NCBI GenBank assembly: GCA_017617805.1
Contig: JAFZVN010000038.1
Coordinates: 1 to 38,566, forward strand
Length of the DNA: 38,566 bases
Direction: 5' to 3'
Origin: Bacteroidaceae bacterium
Lineage (GTDB): Bacteria > Bacteroidota > Bacteroidia > Bacteroidales > Bacteroidaceae
Shown here: positions 7,863 through 38,566 of the stretch, one piece after another
How positions within the stretch are numbered: the first letter of the stretch is position 1
How the letters are laid out: each line of letters opens with the position of its first letter
Notes under the pieces: generated by a model
Told to the model about the DNA's origin: nothing
Seen by the model: only the letters and a program-made list of their open reading frames with translations
Database searches by the model: none
Program-made: the position numbers and the translations under genes

Positions 7863-9109
7863 TGGCTTTCGAACTTTGCATCGCGAAACGAATATATGCT
7901 GATAAGGCAGAGGACGGGGAAAAGTTTTCTCGTCCTGCCATTCGTATAGCGATGTTGGGTGTTGCCATTGGTGTGGCTGTCATGTTGGTGAGTCTGGCAG
8001 TGGTGCTGGGCTTTAAGCATGAGGTGAGTGAGAAGGTGGTGGGATTTGGTAGCCACATTCAGGTGTTGAGTCTGACGCAGGATCAGAACTATGAGATGTT
8101 GCCTGTGCTGACCAACGACACCTTGATTCAGAAAGTGAAGCGGGTGAAGGGCACGGGTCGTGTTCAGCGCTTTGCCACCAAAATCGGCATTTTGAAGACC
8201 GAAGATAATTTCCGGGGCTTGACCTTCAAAGGAGTGGGAGAGGACTATGACCTTTCGTTCTTTCAACGATGTCTGGTGGATGGAGAAATGCCGAAGTTCA
8301 CTTCCAAAAAGGCTACCAATGAGATACTCCTCTCGCAGAAAGTGGCTGGAGACTTGGGTGTGAAGACGGGTGATAAGATATTTGCCTACTTTATGGGTGA
8401 AGAATCGATGCGTGCACGTCGTCTGAAAGTGGCTGGCATTTTTGCCACCAACATGAACGACTACGATAAGAACTATGTCATCACAGACATCTACACGGTG
8501 AGGAAGTTGAATAATTGGGATGAGGAGATGTCGTCTGGATTGGAAATAACGGTGAATGATTTCGAGAGGGTAGAGGAGTTAACACAAAAGCTCCAATTCA
8601 TTCATCAGGGCACCGACCGCAATGGCGTGACCTATGGTGTGTTTAGCATCAAAGACATTGCTGCGCATACGTTTGCTTGGTTGGCTGTGCTTGATATGAA
8701 TGTGGTGATGATACTCGTGCTGATGATTCTGGTGAGTGCCTTTACAGTGGTGAGTGGACTGCTCATCATCATGCTCGAACGCATCAATATGATTGGTACA
8801 CTGAAAGTTTTGGGAGCGACCAATGCCTCTGTCAGGCGTATCTTCATCCAGTTCAGCGTCATGCTGGTAGGGCAGGGAATGTTGTGGGGCAATGTTGTAG
8901 GCTTGTTGCTTTGCTGGCTTCAACAGCGTTTCCATTTCATTTCGCTCGATGCTTCGGTCTATTACATCGACTCAGTACCTATTCAGTTCAACTGGTTGCT
9001 GATTTTGGCCATCAATGCCATCACGTTGCTGGTTTCGACTTTGGTCATCTGGGGAAGTTCGCATCTCATCAGTCTTGGCAAACCCTCACAAACCACTCGC
9101 TACGAATAG
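7862..9109 (+). CDS. LolC/LolE-type ABC transporter permease (FtsX-like)
   Basis: A 415-residue inner-membrane protein with the MacB/FtsX permease layout: a short cytoplasmic start (ELCIAKRIY), a transmembrane segment at about 30-50, a large periplasmic domain to about 270, then three transmembrane segments (about 275-300, 320-345 and 370-395). The N-terminal RPAIRIAMLGVAIGVAVMLV and the loop IMLERINMIGTLKVLGAT are typical of LolC/E lipoprotein-release permeases. The cognate ATPase (LolD) is not in the window. ATG 7862 overlaps the preceding TGA as TGATG; a GTG at 7859 is an alternative. The likely role is extraction of lipoproteins from the inner membrane for delivery to the outer membrane. 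Confidence 0.8.
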   Translation: MAFELCIAKRIYADKAEDGEKFSRPAIRIAMLGVAIGVAVMLVSLAVVLGFKHEVSEKVVGFGSHIQVLSLTQDQNYEMLPVLTNDTLIQKVKRVKGTGRVQRFATKIGILKTEDNFRGLTFKGVGEDYDLSFFQRCLVDGEMPKFTSKKATNEILLSQKVAGDLGVKTGDKIFAYFMGEESMRARRLKVAGIFATNMNDYDKNYVITDIYTVRKLNNWDEEMSSGLEITVNDFERVEELTQKLQFIHQGTDRNGVTYGVFSIKDIAAHTFAWLAVLDMNVVMILVLMILVSAFTVVSGLLIIMLERINMIGTLKVLGATNASVRRIFIQFSVMLVGQGMLWGNVVGLLLCWLQQRFHFISLDASVYYIDSVPIQFNWLLILAINAITLLVSTLVIWGSSHLISLGKPSQTTRYE

Positions 9110-9130: not shown

Positions 9131-9165
9131 TAAATTGTAAATAGTAAATCGTCAAATAGTAAATT
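9131..9165. repeat. Heptad-periodic tract before valS
   Basis: Consecutive 7-bp units TAAATTG, TAAATAG, TAAATCG, TCAAATA and GTAAATT fill 9131-9165, immediately before ATG 9168. A related tract follows valS. These look like degenerate members of a 7-bp repeat family also present at the right end of the window. Confidence 0.6.
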
Positions 9166-11918: not shown

Positions 11919-11920
11919 GA

Positions 11921-11944
11921 TTGTAAATTGTCAAATTGTAAATC
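11921..11944. repeat. Heptad-like tract between valS and uxaB
   Basis: TTGTAAA, TTGTCAAA and TTGTAAA follow each other after the valS stop. Composition and spacing resemble the tract at 9131-9165, so valS is bracketed by related repeats. An in-frame TTG inside this tract (11928) could be mistaken for the uxaB start. Confidence 0.5.
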
Positions 11945-16555: not shown

Positions 16556-18436
16556 TTAGATCAGTTCGATACTTCTTTTCACAAACTTGTTCAGAGCTTC
16601 ACCTTTCAGCAGACCATTCTGGAGCAATGCCAAGTCGATGAGTTGGCTCACCACTTCTGTATTGGCATCCTTGATGTTCTGCTTGATGAGTGGGTGGTCG
16701 GTGTTGAGCACAAGGTTAAGCATTGTAGGCATATCACCATAGAACGCCATACCTGGCTGCAGACGTGACATGTCTTTCATACGGCGCATGTACTCGCTCT
16801 GGGTCATCACTACAGGTGCAGCCGTTTCGCCTAAGGCCTGTGGCTCCACGTTGAACTCGATTTTTTCAAGTTTAGGCAGGGCATTCTTGAAAGTCTCGGT
16901 GAGTACCTTTTTGTCATCCTCTGGCAGTTCCTCTTTCTTCTCGTCGCTCTTCACAATGAGTTTATCCACCACGTCGGAGTCCACACGAGTGAATCGACAG
17001 CGACCATCCTTCTTCTCGCCTTCGATGGTGAACTTCTCCTCGAAGAGATTACACATTGCTGGATCAAGCTGGCCATCCATCAGCAGCACATTGTAACCCT
17101 TGGCGTTGGCAGCATCGATGTAGCTGTACTGGTCATCCTTGTTGTTGGCATAGAGATAGACGATGTTGCCGTCCTTATCGGTCTGCTCGCTCTTGATGAG
17201 GGTCTGGTACTCCTCGAAGGTGTACATCTTGCCCTCTGTGTCCTTCAGCAGGGCGAATGACTTTGCTTTGTCGTAGAAGTCACTCTCTGAGAGCATTCCA
17301 TAATTGATGAATATCTTGATGTCATCCCATTTCTCCTCAAACTGCTTGCGGTCGCTCTTGAAGATGGATGACAGACGATCAGACACTTTCTTTGAGATGT
17401 ACGTTGAAATCTTCTTCACGTTGGCATCGCTCTGCAGATAACTGCGGCTCACATTCAGAGGAATGTCTGGTGAATCAATCACACCATGCAATAAAGTCAT
17501 GAAATCAGGTACGATGCCCTCCACATTGTCTGTTACAAACACCTGGTTGCAGTACAGGTTGATCTTATTTTTCTGGATGTCGAGATTTGTCTTCACTTTG
17601 GGGAAGTAGAGAATACCAGTCAAGTTGAAGGGGTAATCGACGTTCAGATGAATCCAGAACAGAGGTTCATCGCTCATGGGATAGAGCTTCTTGTAAAACT
17701 CCTTGTAGTCTTCGTCCTTCAGTTCGCTGGGTTTGCGCGTCCAGAGTGGGGTGGTGTCGTTGATGACGTCGTCCTCATCTGTCTCCACGCTCTTCTTCTC
17801 CTTGTCATCCCATTTCGTCTTCTTGCCAAAAGCCACAGCCACAGGCAGGAACTTGCAGTATTTGTTCAGTAGTTCGCTCACCTTGTACTTCTCCAAGAAT
17901 TCCTTGCAGTCATCGTCGATGTACATCACAATGTCTGTACCACGATCGGTTTTGTCTGCATCTTCAATAGAGAACTCTGGGCTTCCGTCACATGACCATT
18001 TCACGGCCTTGGAACCCTCCTGCCAACTTTTTGTGATGATTTCCACCTTCTTGCTCACCATGAATGCTGAGTAGAAACCCAGTCCGAAGTGGCCGATGAT
18101 GGCGTTTGCATCCTCTTTGTATTTATCAAGGAAGTCATTAGCACCAGAGAAAGCAATCTGATTGATATACTTGTCGATTTCCTCCTCGGTCATGCCTATA
18201 CCACGGTCGCTTACTGTCAACGTACCCTTATCCTTGTCAATGGATACATGCACAGTCAAGTCGCCAGCCTCCTCCTTCAACTCGCCCTTGCTGGCCAAGG
18301 TCTTGAGTTTCTGAGTGGCATCAACGGCGTTACTTACGATTTCACGGATGAAAATGTCATGGTCTGAATAGAGAAACTTTTTGATAACGGGGAAAATGTT
18401 CTCAGTCGTAACCCCGATGTTACCTTTTTGAGACAT
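16556..18436 (-). CDS. htpG: Molecular chaperone HtpG (Hsp90)
   Basis: A 626-residue bacterial Hsp90. The N-terminal GHKL ATPase domain shows FIREIVSNAVDATQKL (Mg-coordinating Asn), VSDRGIGMTEEE and GHFGLGFYSAFMV. The middle domain shows PLWTRKPSEL and GVIDSPDIPLNVSRSYLQ. The C-terminal dimerisation domain ends without the eukaryotic MEEVD tail. It is an ATP-dependent cytosolic chaperone. The acidic insert KKSVETDEDDVIND between domains is a charged linker. It is transcribed divergently from ftsZ across a 355-bp gap and convergently with the esterase. No CIRCE element was seen upstream. Confidence 0.96.
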   Translation of the reverse strand: MSQKGNIGVTTENIFPVIKKFLYSDHDIFIREIVSNAVDATQKLKTLASKGELKEEAGDLTVHVSIDKDKGTLTVSDRGIGMTEEEIDKYINQIAFSGANDFLDKYKEDANAIIGHFGLGFYSAFMVSKKVEIITKSWQEGSKAVKWSCDGSPEFSIEDADKTDRGTDIVMYIDDDCKEFLEKYKVSELLNKYCKFLPVAVAFGKKTKWDDKEKKSVETDEDDVINDTTPLWTRKPSELKDEDYKEFYKKLYPMSDEPLFWIHLNVDYPFNLTGILYFPKVKTNLDIQKNKINLYCNQVFVTDNVEGIVPDFMTLLHGVIDSPDIPLNVSRSYLQSDANVKKISTYISKKVSDRLSSIFKSDRKQFEEKWDDIKIFINYGMLSESDFYDKAKSFALLKDTEGKMYTFEEYQTLIKSEQTDKDGNIVYLYANNKDDQYSYIDAANAKGYNVLLMDGQLDPAMCNLFEEKFTIEGEKKDGRCRFTRVDSDVVDKLIVKSDEKKEELPEDDKKVLTETFKNALPKLEKIEFNVEPQALGETAAPVVMTQSEYMRRMKDMSRLQPGMAFYGDMPTMLNLVLNTDHPLIKQNIKDANTEVVSQLIDLALLQNGLLKGEALNKFVKRSIELI

Positions 18437-37039: not shown

Positions 37040-37726
37040 TTGAGTCGTTATGAGCGTTTCTTTGAGCATCCTTGGCTGAATGATGAGGCTAAGAAGTTCC
37101 TCTTTGAGGAGCGTCATCTTGACCCAAGGGTGGTGCGCTGGTGTCGCCTGACTTCGTGGCGCGACAAGCAGGGTGTGCCTTGGTTGCAGATTCCATATTA
37201 TAATCAAGAAGGGAAGTTGGTGGGCATTCAGAACAGGAATCTTGGAAGTGAAAAGGGAAAAGTGAAAAGTGAACCTTTAGCTCGACGTAGTCAAAAATTG
37301 GCTACCGCACAGGGCAACTGTCAATTGTCAACTGTCAACTGTCAACTTGCTTCCGCTCCTCGATTCCGATTCCCCTATGGGTCACAATGCAGCATCTACA
37401 ACCTGCCTGTGCTGAACTTGCTGCACGAAGGGGAAGACCTCTACATCACCGAAGGATGCTCCGACTGCTGGGCAATTCTCTCGGCTGGACACAAGGCAAT
37501 AGCCATACCTTCTGCCACTCTGCTCAAACCCAAAGACGTGGAACAATTGTCAACTCTCAACTGTCAATTGTCAACTCACTTCCACATGTACCCGGATCGT
37601 GATGAGCCTGGTGAACGCCTCTTCCTTCAGCTGAAACAAATGCTGCCCAATCTGGAGCACCACCAACTCCCTCCAGACTGCAAGGACTATAGCGAATACT
37701 ATGTCAAGTTGAAAGTTGAAAGCTGA
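37040..37726 (+). CDS. Toprim-domain (primase-like) protein, N-terminally short, with repeat inserts
   Basis: A 228-residue protein with conserved blocks YERFFEHPWLNDEAKKFL and PYYNQEGKLVGIQNRNLG and a Toprim-like domain: E138 in YITEGCSDCW and D186/D188 in YPDRDEPGE, where Glu and the DxD pair would bind Mg. It resembles the Toprim part of CHC2-zinc-finger primases of Bacteroidales accessory regions. No zinc-finger domain precedes it; the frame is closed by a TGA at 36977, so the gene looks truncated. The best start is TTG 37040-37042; there is no ATG nearby in frame. Two stretches of NCQLST-type residues come from heptad repeats inserted between conserved blocks, and the stop lies in a third heptad tract. 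Function would be primase or nickase-like, if active. Confidence 0.62.
   Translation: MSRYERFFEHPWLNDEAKKFLFEERHLDPRVVRWCRLTSWRDKQGVPWLQIPYYNQEGKLVGIQNRNLGSEKGKVKSEPLARRSQKLATAQGNCQLSTVNCQLASAPRFRFPYGSQCSIYNLPVLNLLHEGEDLYITEGCSDCWAILSAGHKAIAIPSATLLKPKDVEQLSTLNCQLSTHFHMYPDRDEPGERLFLQLKQMLPNLEHHQLPPDCKDYSEYYVKLKVES
37248..37275. repeat. Heptad tract inside the Toprim gene (GTGAAAA type)
   Basis: GTGAAAA, GGGAAAA, GTGAAAA and GTGAACC are contiguous 7-bp units. They encode a Lys/Ser-rich linker after the IQNRNLG block. Confidence 0.6.
37315..37349. repeat. Heptad tract inside the Toprim gene (CAACTGT type)
   Basis: Five contiguous units: CAACTGT, CAATTGT, CAACTGT, CAACTGT, CAACTTG. They encode a Cys/Gln/Leu/Ser/Thr stretch that breaks the protein between conserved blocks. 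Seven-base units step through all three frames, repeating every seven codons. Confidence 0.85.
37544..37578. repeat. Second CAATTGT-type heptad tract inside the Toprim gene
   Basis: Five contiguous units: CAATTGT, CAACTCT, CAACTGT, CAATTGT, CAACTCA. It is the same repeat family as the tract 200 bp upstream and again sits between conserved blocks, just before YPDRDEPGE. Confidence 0.85.
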
Positions 37727-37734: not shown

Positions 37735-37812
37735 AAAGGCAGGTTATTGTACAATAAGTGCCCCTTATTTCCCAATAACCTGCCTTTATTAAGTGATAAC
37801 GGTGGGTTATTG
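37735..37812 (+). terminator. Long hairpin with an alternative downstream pairing
   Basis: AAAGGCAGGTTATTG (37735-37749) pairs perfectly with CAATAACCTGCCTTT (37773-37787), with a nested AATAAG/CTTATT stem inside the loop. The central strand can also pair with GGTGGGTTATTG (37801-37812) through ten Watson-Crick and two G-U pairs. It lies 9 bp after the Toprim stop. The T-tract is poor. Confidence 0.7.
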
Positions 37813-37874: not shown

Positions 37875-37905
37875 TTGCATGATTCAAATTATTTTCGTAA
37901 CTTTG
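37875..37905 (+). promoter_or_regulatory. Bacteroidota-type promoter of the HU-like gene
   Basis: TTG at 37875-37877 and TAACTTTG at 37898-37905 are 20 bp apart. The expected start site is near 37912, so the transcript would begin almost exactly at the first heptad of the following repeat. Confidence 0.75.
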
Positions 37906-37913
37906 CAATGTAA

Positions 37914-38002
37914 AAGTTGAGGGTTGAGAGTTTAGTGTTTAGGGCTGTCAAAGTATCGTCTTTAACTCCTTAAACTTTAAACCTTAAACTCTAAACTTTA
38001 CA
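37914..38002. repeat. Inverted heptad array in the HU-like gene leader
   Basis: AAGTTGA, GGGTTGA, GAGTTTA and GTGTTTA run in 7-bp register up to 37941. After a 19-base spacer, TTTAACT, CCTTAAA, CTTTAAA, CCTTAAA, CTCTAAA and CTTTACA fill 37961-38002, roughly the reverse complement of the first set. The RNA could fold into a long imperfect hairpin at its 5' end. Confidence 0.8.
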
Positions 38003-38076
38003 GAAAAAGCGGGAAGTGGTCACCCGATGTAGCTAGCCACACACAACACAAACACATCATAAACACAAACACAACT

Positions 38077-38566
38077 ATGATTGAACTTTATTTGAGTAAG
38101 GTGACCGAGAATTCGGAAACTGAGCAGGCGGGCAAGCTTTATGCCCGAGTGAGTTACAAGCAGGCCTTGACCATTCAGGACATGGCGCGCCACATGGCAG
38201 AGCACAACACGGTGTTCTCGGAGGGTAGCATCCTGGGGGTGCTGACCGACTTCGTGAAGTGCGTGCGCGAGATGCTGCTGATGGGCAACACGGTCAAGAT
38301 CGAGAACCTCGCCATCTTCAAGGCTACCGTGGAGGCCAACGCCCTTGAGACGCTCTACGACGCTGAGAACGACAAGGTGGCAACGGCAAGCATCGGTACG
38401 CTGGCAGAGGGTGCGAAGACTGGCGCAGCCGTGAAGACTGTGAAGCTCTTGGCTCAGAGCACAGGCGAGTTCACCCGCGACGAACTGAAGAAGGACGTGA
38501 AGCTGGCGTGGACGGACAAGACCAAGGCCGAGATTGCAGCTGCCAAGGGTGGCACCTCGAACGCTG
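38077..38566 (+). CDS. HU-related DNA-binding protein (partial)
   Basis: The gene starts at ATG 38077 and runs off the window end, with 163 codons visible. The sequence (IELYLSKVTENSETEQAGKLYARV, then FSEGSILGVLTDFVKCVREML, MGNTVKIENLAIFKATVEA) fits the Bacteroidales HU-related family that carries an extended C-terminal tail and lies next to primase genes in accessory islands. Ala/Lys/Thr-rich sequence follows after about residue 130. It probably binds and bends DNA. The leader contains the inverted heptad array and an AC-rich stretch (38037-38076). Confidence 0.85.
   Translation, partial: MIELYLSKVTENSETEQAGKLYARVSYKQALTIQDMARHMAEHNTVFSEGSILGVLTDFVKCVREMLLMGNTVKIENLAIFKATVEANALETLYDAENDKVATASIGTLAEGAKTGAAVKTVKLLAQSTGEFTRDELKKDVKLAWTDKTKAEIAAAKGGTSNA

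Follow-up and report, generated by a model that had tools for sequence, protein, structure and literature searches.

In cyanobacteria, the short tandemly repeated repetitive (STRR) sequences are dispersed, intergenic repeats with a heptanucleotide period. Direct repeats of the heptamer TAACTGA were described in Beggiatoaceae, Cyanobacteria and five Bacteroidetes (MacGregor, 2015; PMC4679880); in the main genome of that study, these repeats are dispersed and almost wholly intergenic, with 169 direct sets and one indirect repeat. The same source refers to long simple sequence repeats (LSSRs) with 7-nt units, for which slippage was proposed as the cause (Mrazek, 2007). Among structured RNAs, the STAXI motif is a pseudoknot that occurs as two or three tandem copies close to genes whose products bind or manipulate DNA (PMC2864571). 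Here, these systems are compared with a locus in a 38,566-nt stretch from a Bacteroidaceae bacterium (assembly GCA_017617805.1, contig JAFZVN010000038.1), hereafter the window, i.e., the whole stretch of DNA that was analyzed, where two heptad arrays of opposite orientation stand between a promoter and an RNA pseudoknot in the leader of an HU-HIG gene. The paired array is probably a lineage-specific insertion, in which 7-bp repeats of a class dispersed through the genome entered a tolerant slot that separates the start of transcription from the functional part of the HU-HIG leader; judging by the homologous leaders, the pseudoknot, not the array, is the conserved part of this leader. The features concerned are the following (handles with G, C and L denote genomes, contigs and loci, respectively):

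37875 to 37905, plus strand: putative promoter of the HU-HIG leader, with TTG at 37875–37877 and TAACTTTG at 37898–37905
37906 to 38008, plus strand: variable slot from the −7 box to the pseudoknot, 103 b in the window and 9–127 b in homologs (46 leaders)
37916 to 37943, plus strand: forward heptad arm, four in-phase units GTTGAGG, GTTGAGA, GTTTAGT and GTTTAGG
37970 to 37997, plus strand: reversed heptad arm, four in-phase units TTAAACT, TTAAACC, TTAAACT and CTAAACT
38010 to 38040, plus strand: conserved H-type pseudoknot with stems S1 (CGGG 38010–38013 / CCCG 38023–38026) and S2 (38016–38022 / 38034–38040)
38077 to 38566, plus strand: HU-HIG gene (PF18291; Pfam E 9.6e-12), running off the end of contig C79 (38566 b)

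The homologous leaders were taken mostly from 78 HU-HIG loci titled Prevotella, Prevotellaceae, Bacteroidaceae or Bacteroidales. Fifteen loci whose match lacked the HU start were left out; among the 63 examined, 47 passed the pseudoknot pattern (5 of them identical copies) and 16 failed, L103 and L104 being restored by eye from the failures. In the 50 leaders scanned for two adjacent units, both arm orientations were present only in the window. The genome of the window harbors four leaders of this HU-HIG family (the window, C46, C52 and C71). Reversed units alone occur in C46 (L064) and in G008 (L139), and forward units alone in C52, C71, G026-C9 and L121; in C52, C71 and G026-C9, the forward units are followed by an unrelated repeat of the ATCTGTG type. 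A repeat ATCTGTGAAATCCGTGC(C/T)ATCTGTGTGA was also noted in the slot of L059, L065 and L056 (two leaders of the same genome and one of G026), at the place where the reversed heptad arm would sit. In G022, G024 and G026-C22, the promoter runs to the pseudoknot with no array in between, and the array units themselves differ between the homologous leaders. Overall, the other 49 leaders lack the array, carry one arm of it or have other sequence in its place, and the pseudoknot and the gene persist, with the promoter found in 46 of the 50.

The first-pass annotation, made from the window alone, had treated the array as the 5′ end of the HU mRNA as such, and had set beforehand homologous loci without a periodic leader as the observation that would contradict it. 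Such loci exist within the same genus (G022, G024), both arms are present in only one of the 50 leaders, and the slot is just 9–18 b long in 17 of 46. Since homologous leaders exist without the array, it is not a conserved feature of the leader.

The combination of TTG and TAACTTTG is presumably a promoter of the Bacteroidota type. In 46 of the 50 leaders, a TAnn(T/A)TTG box stands ahead of the pseudoknot, and in all 46 a TTG is located 18–26 b upstream of this box; the four leaders lacking the −7 box (L102 is cut by the contig end) were excluded from the slot statistics. As the promoter elements are common to the homologous leaders, transcription likely starts at about 37910, a few bases before the array, so the placement of the array directly after a plausible promoter, as initially annotated, stands. 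The slot that follows is 9–18 b long in 17 leaders, 26–50 b in another 17 and 65–127 b in 12. Period-7 tracts of other families are found in the slot of L077, L101 and L149, and before the motif in L082. On the comparison of these leaders, the slot takes up varied insertions, the array being one example. Long inserts also lie upstream of the pseudoknot in L089, L110 and L084; their second hairpin, in which CTGCGG(C/T)TC(G/A)GAAAAG occurs, is apparently another repeat in this slot.

The pseudoknot begins 60–73 b upstream of the HU-HIG start codon and was found in 49 of the 63 loci examined, including the two variants added by eye (L103 and L104). Its S1 is mostly the invariant CGGG/CCCG with a short loop; CGGT/GCCG occurs in four copies and AGGAG/CTCCT in L060 and L161, the stem is broken in L104, and alignment gaps precluded column-wise counting of S1. 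Its S2 comprises at least six consecutive pairs in 47 of 50 sequences (four in L090 and five in L084), with a loop of the ATGTAGY type. In the window, S2 contains one C-A mismatch (38021–38035), owing to which the per-sequence parse script, trying several offsets per row, missed the stem, and this copy was read by hand. In the model-fitted alignment A3 (63 matches in 76 sources, 56 distinct rows), which leans to the six modelled S2 pairs, 92.1% of the S2 cells are paired vs. 72.2% in shuffles, and two-sided changes are present in all seven pairs. The S2 covariation score amounts to 0.596, compared with 0.224 for shuffles and no more than 0.154 for slid controls; none of 500 shuffles and none of the six slides scored as high. 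The seventh pair, lying outside the model, is A-U in 52 rows and G-C in four. At the same time, the outermost pair does not form in 21 of the 56 rows, and further pair types are not unusual, their value being reached by 111 of 500 shuffles.

The model R1, built from sequences including the window, matches the window at 54 bits. A model search of 101 genomes detected the motif in seven, each of them from the same genus (7 of 45 within it); only part of the candidates was scored, so the absence of the motif from a given genome is unproven. In L164 and L172 (G008 and G022), the motif stands before a second HU-HIG protein, representing another subfamily: the two proteins are 71% alike over 183 residues and, in the parts that match the window protein, share about 30% identity with it, both exceeding the PF18291 cut-off. 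In L165, L169 and L170, the motif is present with no HU match in the fetched locus. Rfam 15 yielded no significant match at the motif in the window and 16 homologous loci. STAXI likewise had no significant match there; its family RF01728 has no match in the genome of the window and none in 14 controls either, so this negative result is weak. The small RNA FopS of Bacteroides was rejected: a sub-threshold match in L127 (2422–2493, minus strand, opposite to the pseudoknot; E 0.92) is absent in eight further loci and probably due to chance. No description of this pseudoknot was found in the accessible portion of the open-licence PMC literature, and it appears to be undescribed.

Turning to the array itself, the lag-7 identity across 37914–38002 is 45/82, a value that none of 5,000 dinucleotide shuffles attained, whether lag 7 alone or all lags from 4 to 12 were considered; Tandem Repeats Finder (TRF) called period 7 at 37916–37944 (score 30, equal to the threshold) and 37970–38000 (score 48). 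These figures bear out the 7-bp period of the initial annotation, and the reading of the units agrees with the opposite orientation of the halves. Its six complementary-orientation units turned out to be an over-count, comprising four units in phase, an incomplete unit at 37998 (TTAC) and, at 37961, a unit (TTTAACT) that is one base out of phase. The unit type is GTTKARR, and TAACTGA is not matched; the arms are imperfect copies of each other (27/35 in a gapped local alignment, 0.70 ungapped identity). An assembly artefact is unlikely, because reversed heptads occupy the matching slot of C46 in the same assembly and of G008 in another one. Elsewhere in the window, TRF found weak heptad tracts at 9131–9164 (TAAATAG) and 11920–11943 (ATTGTAA).

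In the whole genome, the pattern GTTKANNGTTKANNGTTKA, representing GTTKA heptads, gave 158 overlapping matches; the reversed control, itself able to match heptad arrays, gave 54. Over 37 genomes of the genus, that of the window included, at least 10 matches were found in 21, 1–9 in seven and none in nine; in other families of the order, 2 of 24 genomes had at least 10. In sampled stretches, the array density was 16.1 per 100 kb in the genome of the window, 12.6–24.7 in five relatives and 0 in 110 kb of G023; the stretches were partly picked around known matches, so the figure of 16.1 is biased upward. When periods from 3 to 15 were compared, 7 was the commonest and its double, 14, the second in four of five genomes, G023 showing none. 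The sampled arrays are situated mostly outside mechanically called open reading frames (ORFs) of at least 100 aa (155 of 222, with 67 inside; in G008, 9 of 16 are inside). Their unit families include AGTTKAG, AGTTGAC, AGTGAAA, AATTGAN and AATKAGG, with units varying within an array. The array of the window belongs to these dispersed heptanucleotide tandem repeats, hallmarked by period 7, many copies and a mostly intergenic location. Because a 7-bp period characterizes this repeat class throughout the genome, the suggested selection on period at the HU locus is unsupported.

The paired arrangement had also been singled out, as one not known to be described in this group. The inverted pair is real, but paired arrays recur elsewhere in the genomes: in the sampled stretches, neighboring arrays of one unit family within 150 b formed 18 convergent, 3 divergent and 2 same-direction pairs (23 in total, the window pair failing the criterion of this count and hence lying outside it). 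In a smaller count that did not require a common family, 12 convergent, 1 divergent and 6 same-direction pairs were found. Eight of the 18 convergent pairs are built of AGTGAAA units, mostly with a core like AAAAATCTAAGTTACC...GGTAACTTAGATTTTT, and in five of the eight the arms are exactly 40 b apart. Copies of this element are present in the genome of the window, G016, G022 and G003, the palindromes being located at L032 2681–2784, L046 16506–16600, L043 518–664, L188 18415–18510, L190 18535–18635, L228 2717–2843, L216 13446–13542 and L235 1993–2109. The AGTGAAA palindrome looks like a bidirectional terminator or a repeat resembling a miniature inverted-repeat transposable element (MITE). Within-locus vs. 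cross-locus arm identity is 0.948 vs. 0.945 for AGTGAAA (8 loci), 0.952 vs. 0.914 for AATKAGG (4 loci) and 0.961 vs. 0.932 for AATTGAN (2 loci). Since the two values are equal for AGTGAAA, its arms represent a shared element family with no need for mutual copying, and arm-to-arm copying (hairpin-templated growth) received no clear support from this comparison. Strict whole-genome patterns for AGTGAAA pairs, with convergent sites in 2 of 61 genomes and divergent ones in none of 61, were discarded as too strict, missing pairs known in the genome of the window. The hairpin of L046 (16480–16630) resembled many microRNA families of Rfam below the gathering score (E down to 3e-6), which was taken as generic hairpin likeness. 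A further hairpin type, TTTGCTACCGC...GCGGTAGCAAA or similar, was noted by eye beside GTGAAAA or AGTTAAA heptads, seemingly at gene ends (L036 ~350–420, L033 ~8010–8080, L041 ~17190–17280, L042 ~8390–8470).

These pairs bear on the possibility that the two arms are separate arrays, grown in place by polymerase slippage and oppositely oriented by chance, an explanation that we regard as credible, if rather unlikely. The occurrence of forward units without reversed ones in four leaders and of reversed units without forward ones in two would fit it, as would the low mutual identity of the window arms. Slippage is at odds with the prevalence of convergent over divergent same-family pairs (18 vs. 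3), and the AGTGAAA arms, as similar across loci as within them, point to a shared element not expected from slippage alone.

The predicted folding concerns another explanation, in which the inverted array is kept as a 5′-terminal stem-loop protecting or regulating the HU-HIG mRNA, the heptads having extended an older short hairpin. Both arms fold as a single long hairpin of −31.1 kcal/mol in the 103-b segment from the promoter to the pseudoknot (z −4.5, 0 of 300 shuffles equally stable); in a 172-nt segment including this hairpin, z is −1.68, with 11 of 200 shuffles equally stable. Among the 46 leaders, ten slots besides that of the window fold significantly (p ≤ 0.003), six with short hairpins (L080, L094, L099, L106, L122 and L126) and four with long folded inserts (L089, L110, L138 and L144), and the C46 slot attains z −1.9 (p 0.037). 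All this would speak for a retained stem-loop, but the 17 shortest slots (9–18 b) have no predicted fold, the inserts of C52, C71 and G026-C9, 102–103 b long, have z about 0, and the G008 slot reaches only z −1.1 (p 0.107) despite its reversed heptads, which makes this explanation improbable in our opinion.

A similarly low probability is assigned to the array being a copy of a small palindromic mobile element with heptad ends, like the AGTGAAA element with its core. The recurrence of the latter in four genomes and the fixed 40-b distance between its arms in five of eight pairs would speak for such an origin. Full-length copies with near-identical terminal inverted repeats, as expected of a MITE-like element, exist for the heptad-armed AGTGAAA palindrome. 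A full-length second copy of the 102-b window array was not found among 22 of 60 rows (1.76 Mb of sequence), which gave only 22–38-b matches besides the array itself; its arms are less alike (0.70 vs. 0.85–1.0), and the window pair is not one of the 23 counted pairs. An origin related to repetitive extragenic palindromes and their Y1 transposases (REP/RAYT) was rejected, as the abundance of heptads in the genus is not tied to the presence of the transposase family PF01797, which is a further point against a mobile element. Thus, heptad-rich genomes without a PF01797 match include G008, G009, G011, G015 and G022 (153–385 heptad matches), and G004, G014, G019 and G033 combine strong PF01797 matches with 0–2 heptad matches; the exceptions are G060 (four matches and 137 heptad hits), G003 (a weak match and 284) and G024 (a strong match and 14). 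Finally, a regulator of HU-HIG could bind to the heptads as a tandem series of sites, a role that MacGregor suggested for TAACTGA repeats located ahead of start codons (PMC4679880), which would suit an array located in a 5′ leader but is very improbable, given that the units differ or are absent in the homologous leaders and that 67 of the 222 sampled arrays lie inside ORFs.

Several observations also weigh against the preferred explanation, i.e., the insertion of a dispersed repeat into a tolerant slot. The insertion is deduced from which leaders carry the array and which do not, neither an empty site nor a target duplication being mapped, and the leaders compared are not independent, several being near-copies. 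The reversed control outnumbered the heptad pattern in G009 (211 vs. 189) and about equaled it in G010 (68 vs. 70), partly as the control matches heptads. The prevailing convergence of paired arms at other loci hints at a cause beyond random insertion; the window arms pair well and ten other slots are significantly folded, therefore a 5′ stem-loop may have some value.

Under the insertion scenario, RNA polymerase would start just ahead of the array, which, where present, would be transcribed and form a 5′ stem-loop of little consequence, having no sequence-specific role. The pseudoknot would be the regulatory element, probably acting on the translation or stability of the HU-HIG mRNA, for which autoregulation by HU-HIG is perhaps the simplest partner hypothesis. 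A broader proposal, which we advance tentatively and with slightly more doubt than confidence, is that the leader downstream of the array represents a new class of pseudoknotted cis-regulatory RNA controlling HU-HIG in Prevotella-type bacteria, possibly bound by the HU-HIG protein, and that inverted repeats able to act as a 5′ stem-loop, built of heptads or otherwise, have landed in the slot repeatedly.

Heptads are also encountered in the neighboring primase-like ORF 37040–37726, which matches residues 100–297 of a CHC2 zinc-finger/Toprim-like protein of L118 (Toprim being below the cut-off). They provide a second example in favor of the insertion of dispersed repeats. The N-terminal zinc-finger part is missing from the window ORF, since the rest of the L118 protein has no match in the window better than E 1. 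Its insert is as follows:

37246 to 37347, plus strand: two heptad arrays (AGTGAAA type, then CAACTGT), an in-frame insert in ORF 37040–37726

At the insert site, the window ORF is 33 residues longer than the L118 protein owing to AGTGAAA and CAACTGT heptads together with other repeat sequence, all in frame. The paralog on C52 (L059) carries a different heptad insert, of the AAGGAGC type, at the identical site. The insert is absent in nine of the ten other homologs compared, the remaining one (L095) having a short non-heptad insert; 6 of the 18 homolog rows gave no segment in this comparison. A second heptad place within the ORF was noted at 37550–37577. Between this ORF and the HU promoter, there is an inverted repeat (37735–37787) with 24-nt arms, 88% complementary, and a 5-nt spacer, possibly a terminator.

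Near-identical copies of the HU-HIG gene are situated at contig ends (the window, C52 with 98% and C71 with 96%), and this multi-copy gene therefore probably breaks the assembly. Carriage by a phage or plasmid was rejected: 37880–38565 had no DNA match in the phage or plasmid collection, and the HU protein gave one weak match, of 25 residues, to a viral contig.

Overall, a striking, apparently dispensable repeat can be told apart here from the conserved element adjoining it. In one Bacteroidota genus, the heptads are a frequent but patchily distributed component of the genomes that often forms inverted pairs, and their spread is testable between close species. The pseudoknot, combining strong covariation in one stem with no significant Rfam match, is a concrete candidate for an element controlling a nucleoid protein family at the RNA level. 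Of the two elements it is the better finding, the array being only moderately interesting.

H-type pseudoknots are also found among the leaders of ribosomal-protein genes. The pseudoknot described here shares the two-stem H-type topology in a 5′ leader with SAM-V riboswitches (PMC6061858) and the location near a gene for a DNA-binding protein with STAXI (PMC2864571); unlike the latter, it is present as a single copy in a leader. It differs from both SAM-V and ribosomal-protein leaders by the HU-HIG genes downstream and by the lack of a significant Rfam 15 match.

As to the heptads, the cyanobacterial STRRs differ in unit sequences and host group, and we know of no inverted pairing in them. In contrast to the LSSRs of Mrazek (2007), as cited in PMC4679880, the units described here are degenerate and often arranged as inverted pairs. 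No description of such heptads in Prevotella was found in the open-licence PMC literature, as far as it was accessible. The TAACTGA repeats of MacGregor (2015; PMC4679880) are the closest parallel to the heptads of the window: both consist of 7-bp tandem units, dispersed and patchily distributed, whereas the units found here are different ones, variable within an array, and their inverted pairs recur. The window array is a variant, apparently not described earlier, of a known kind of heptanucleotide repeat.
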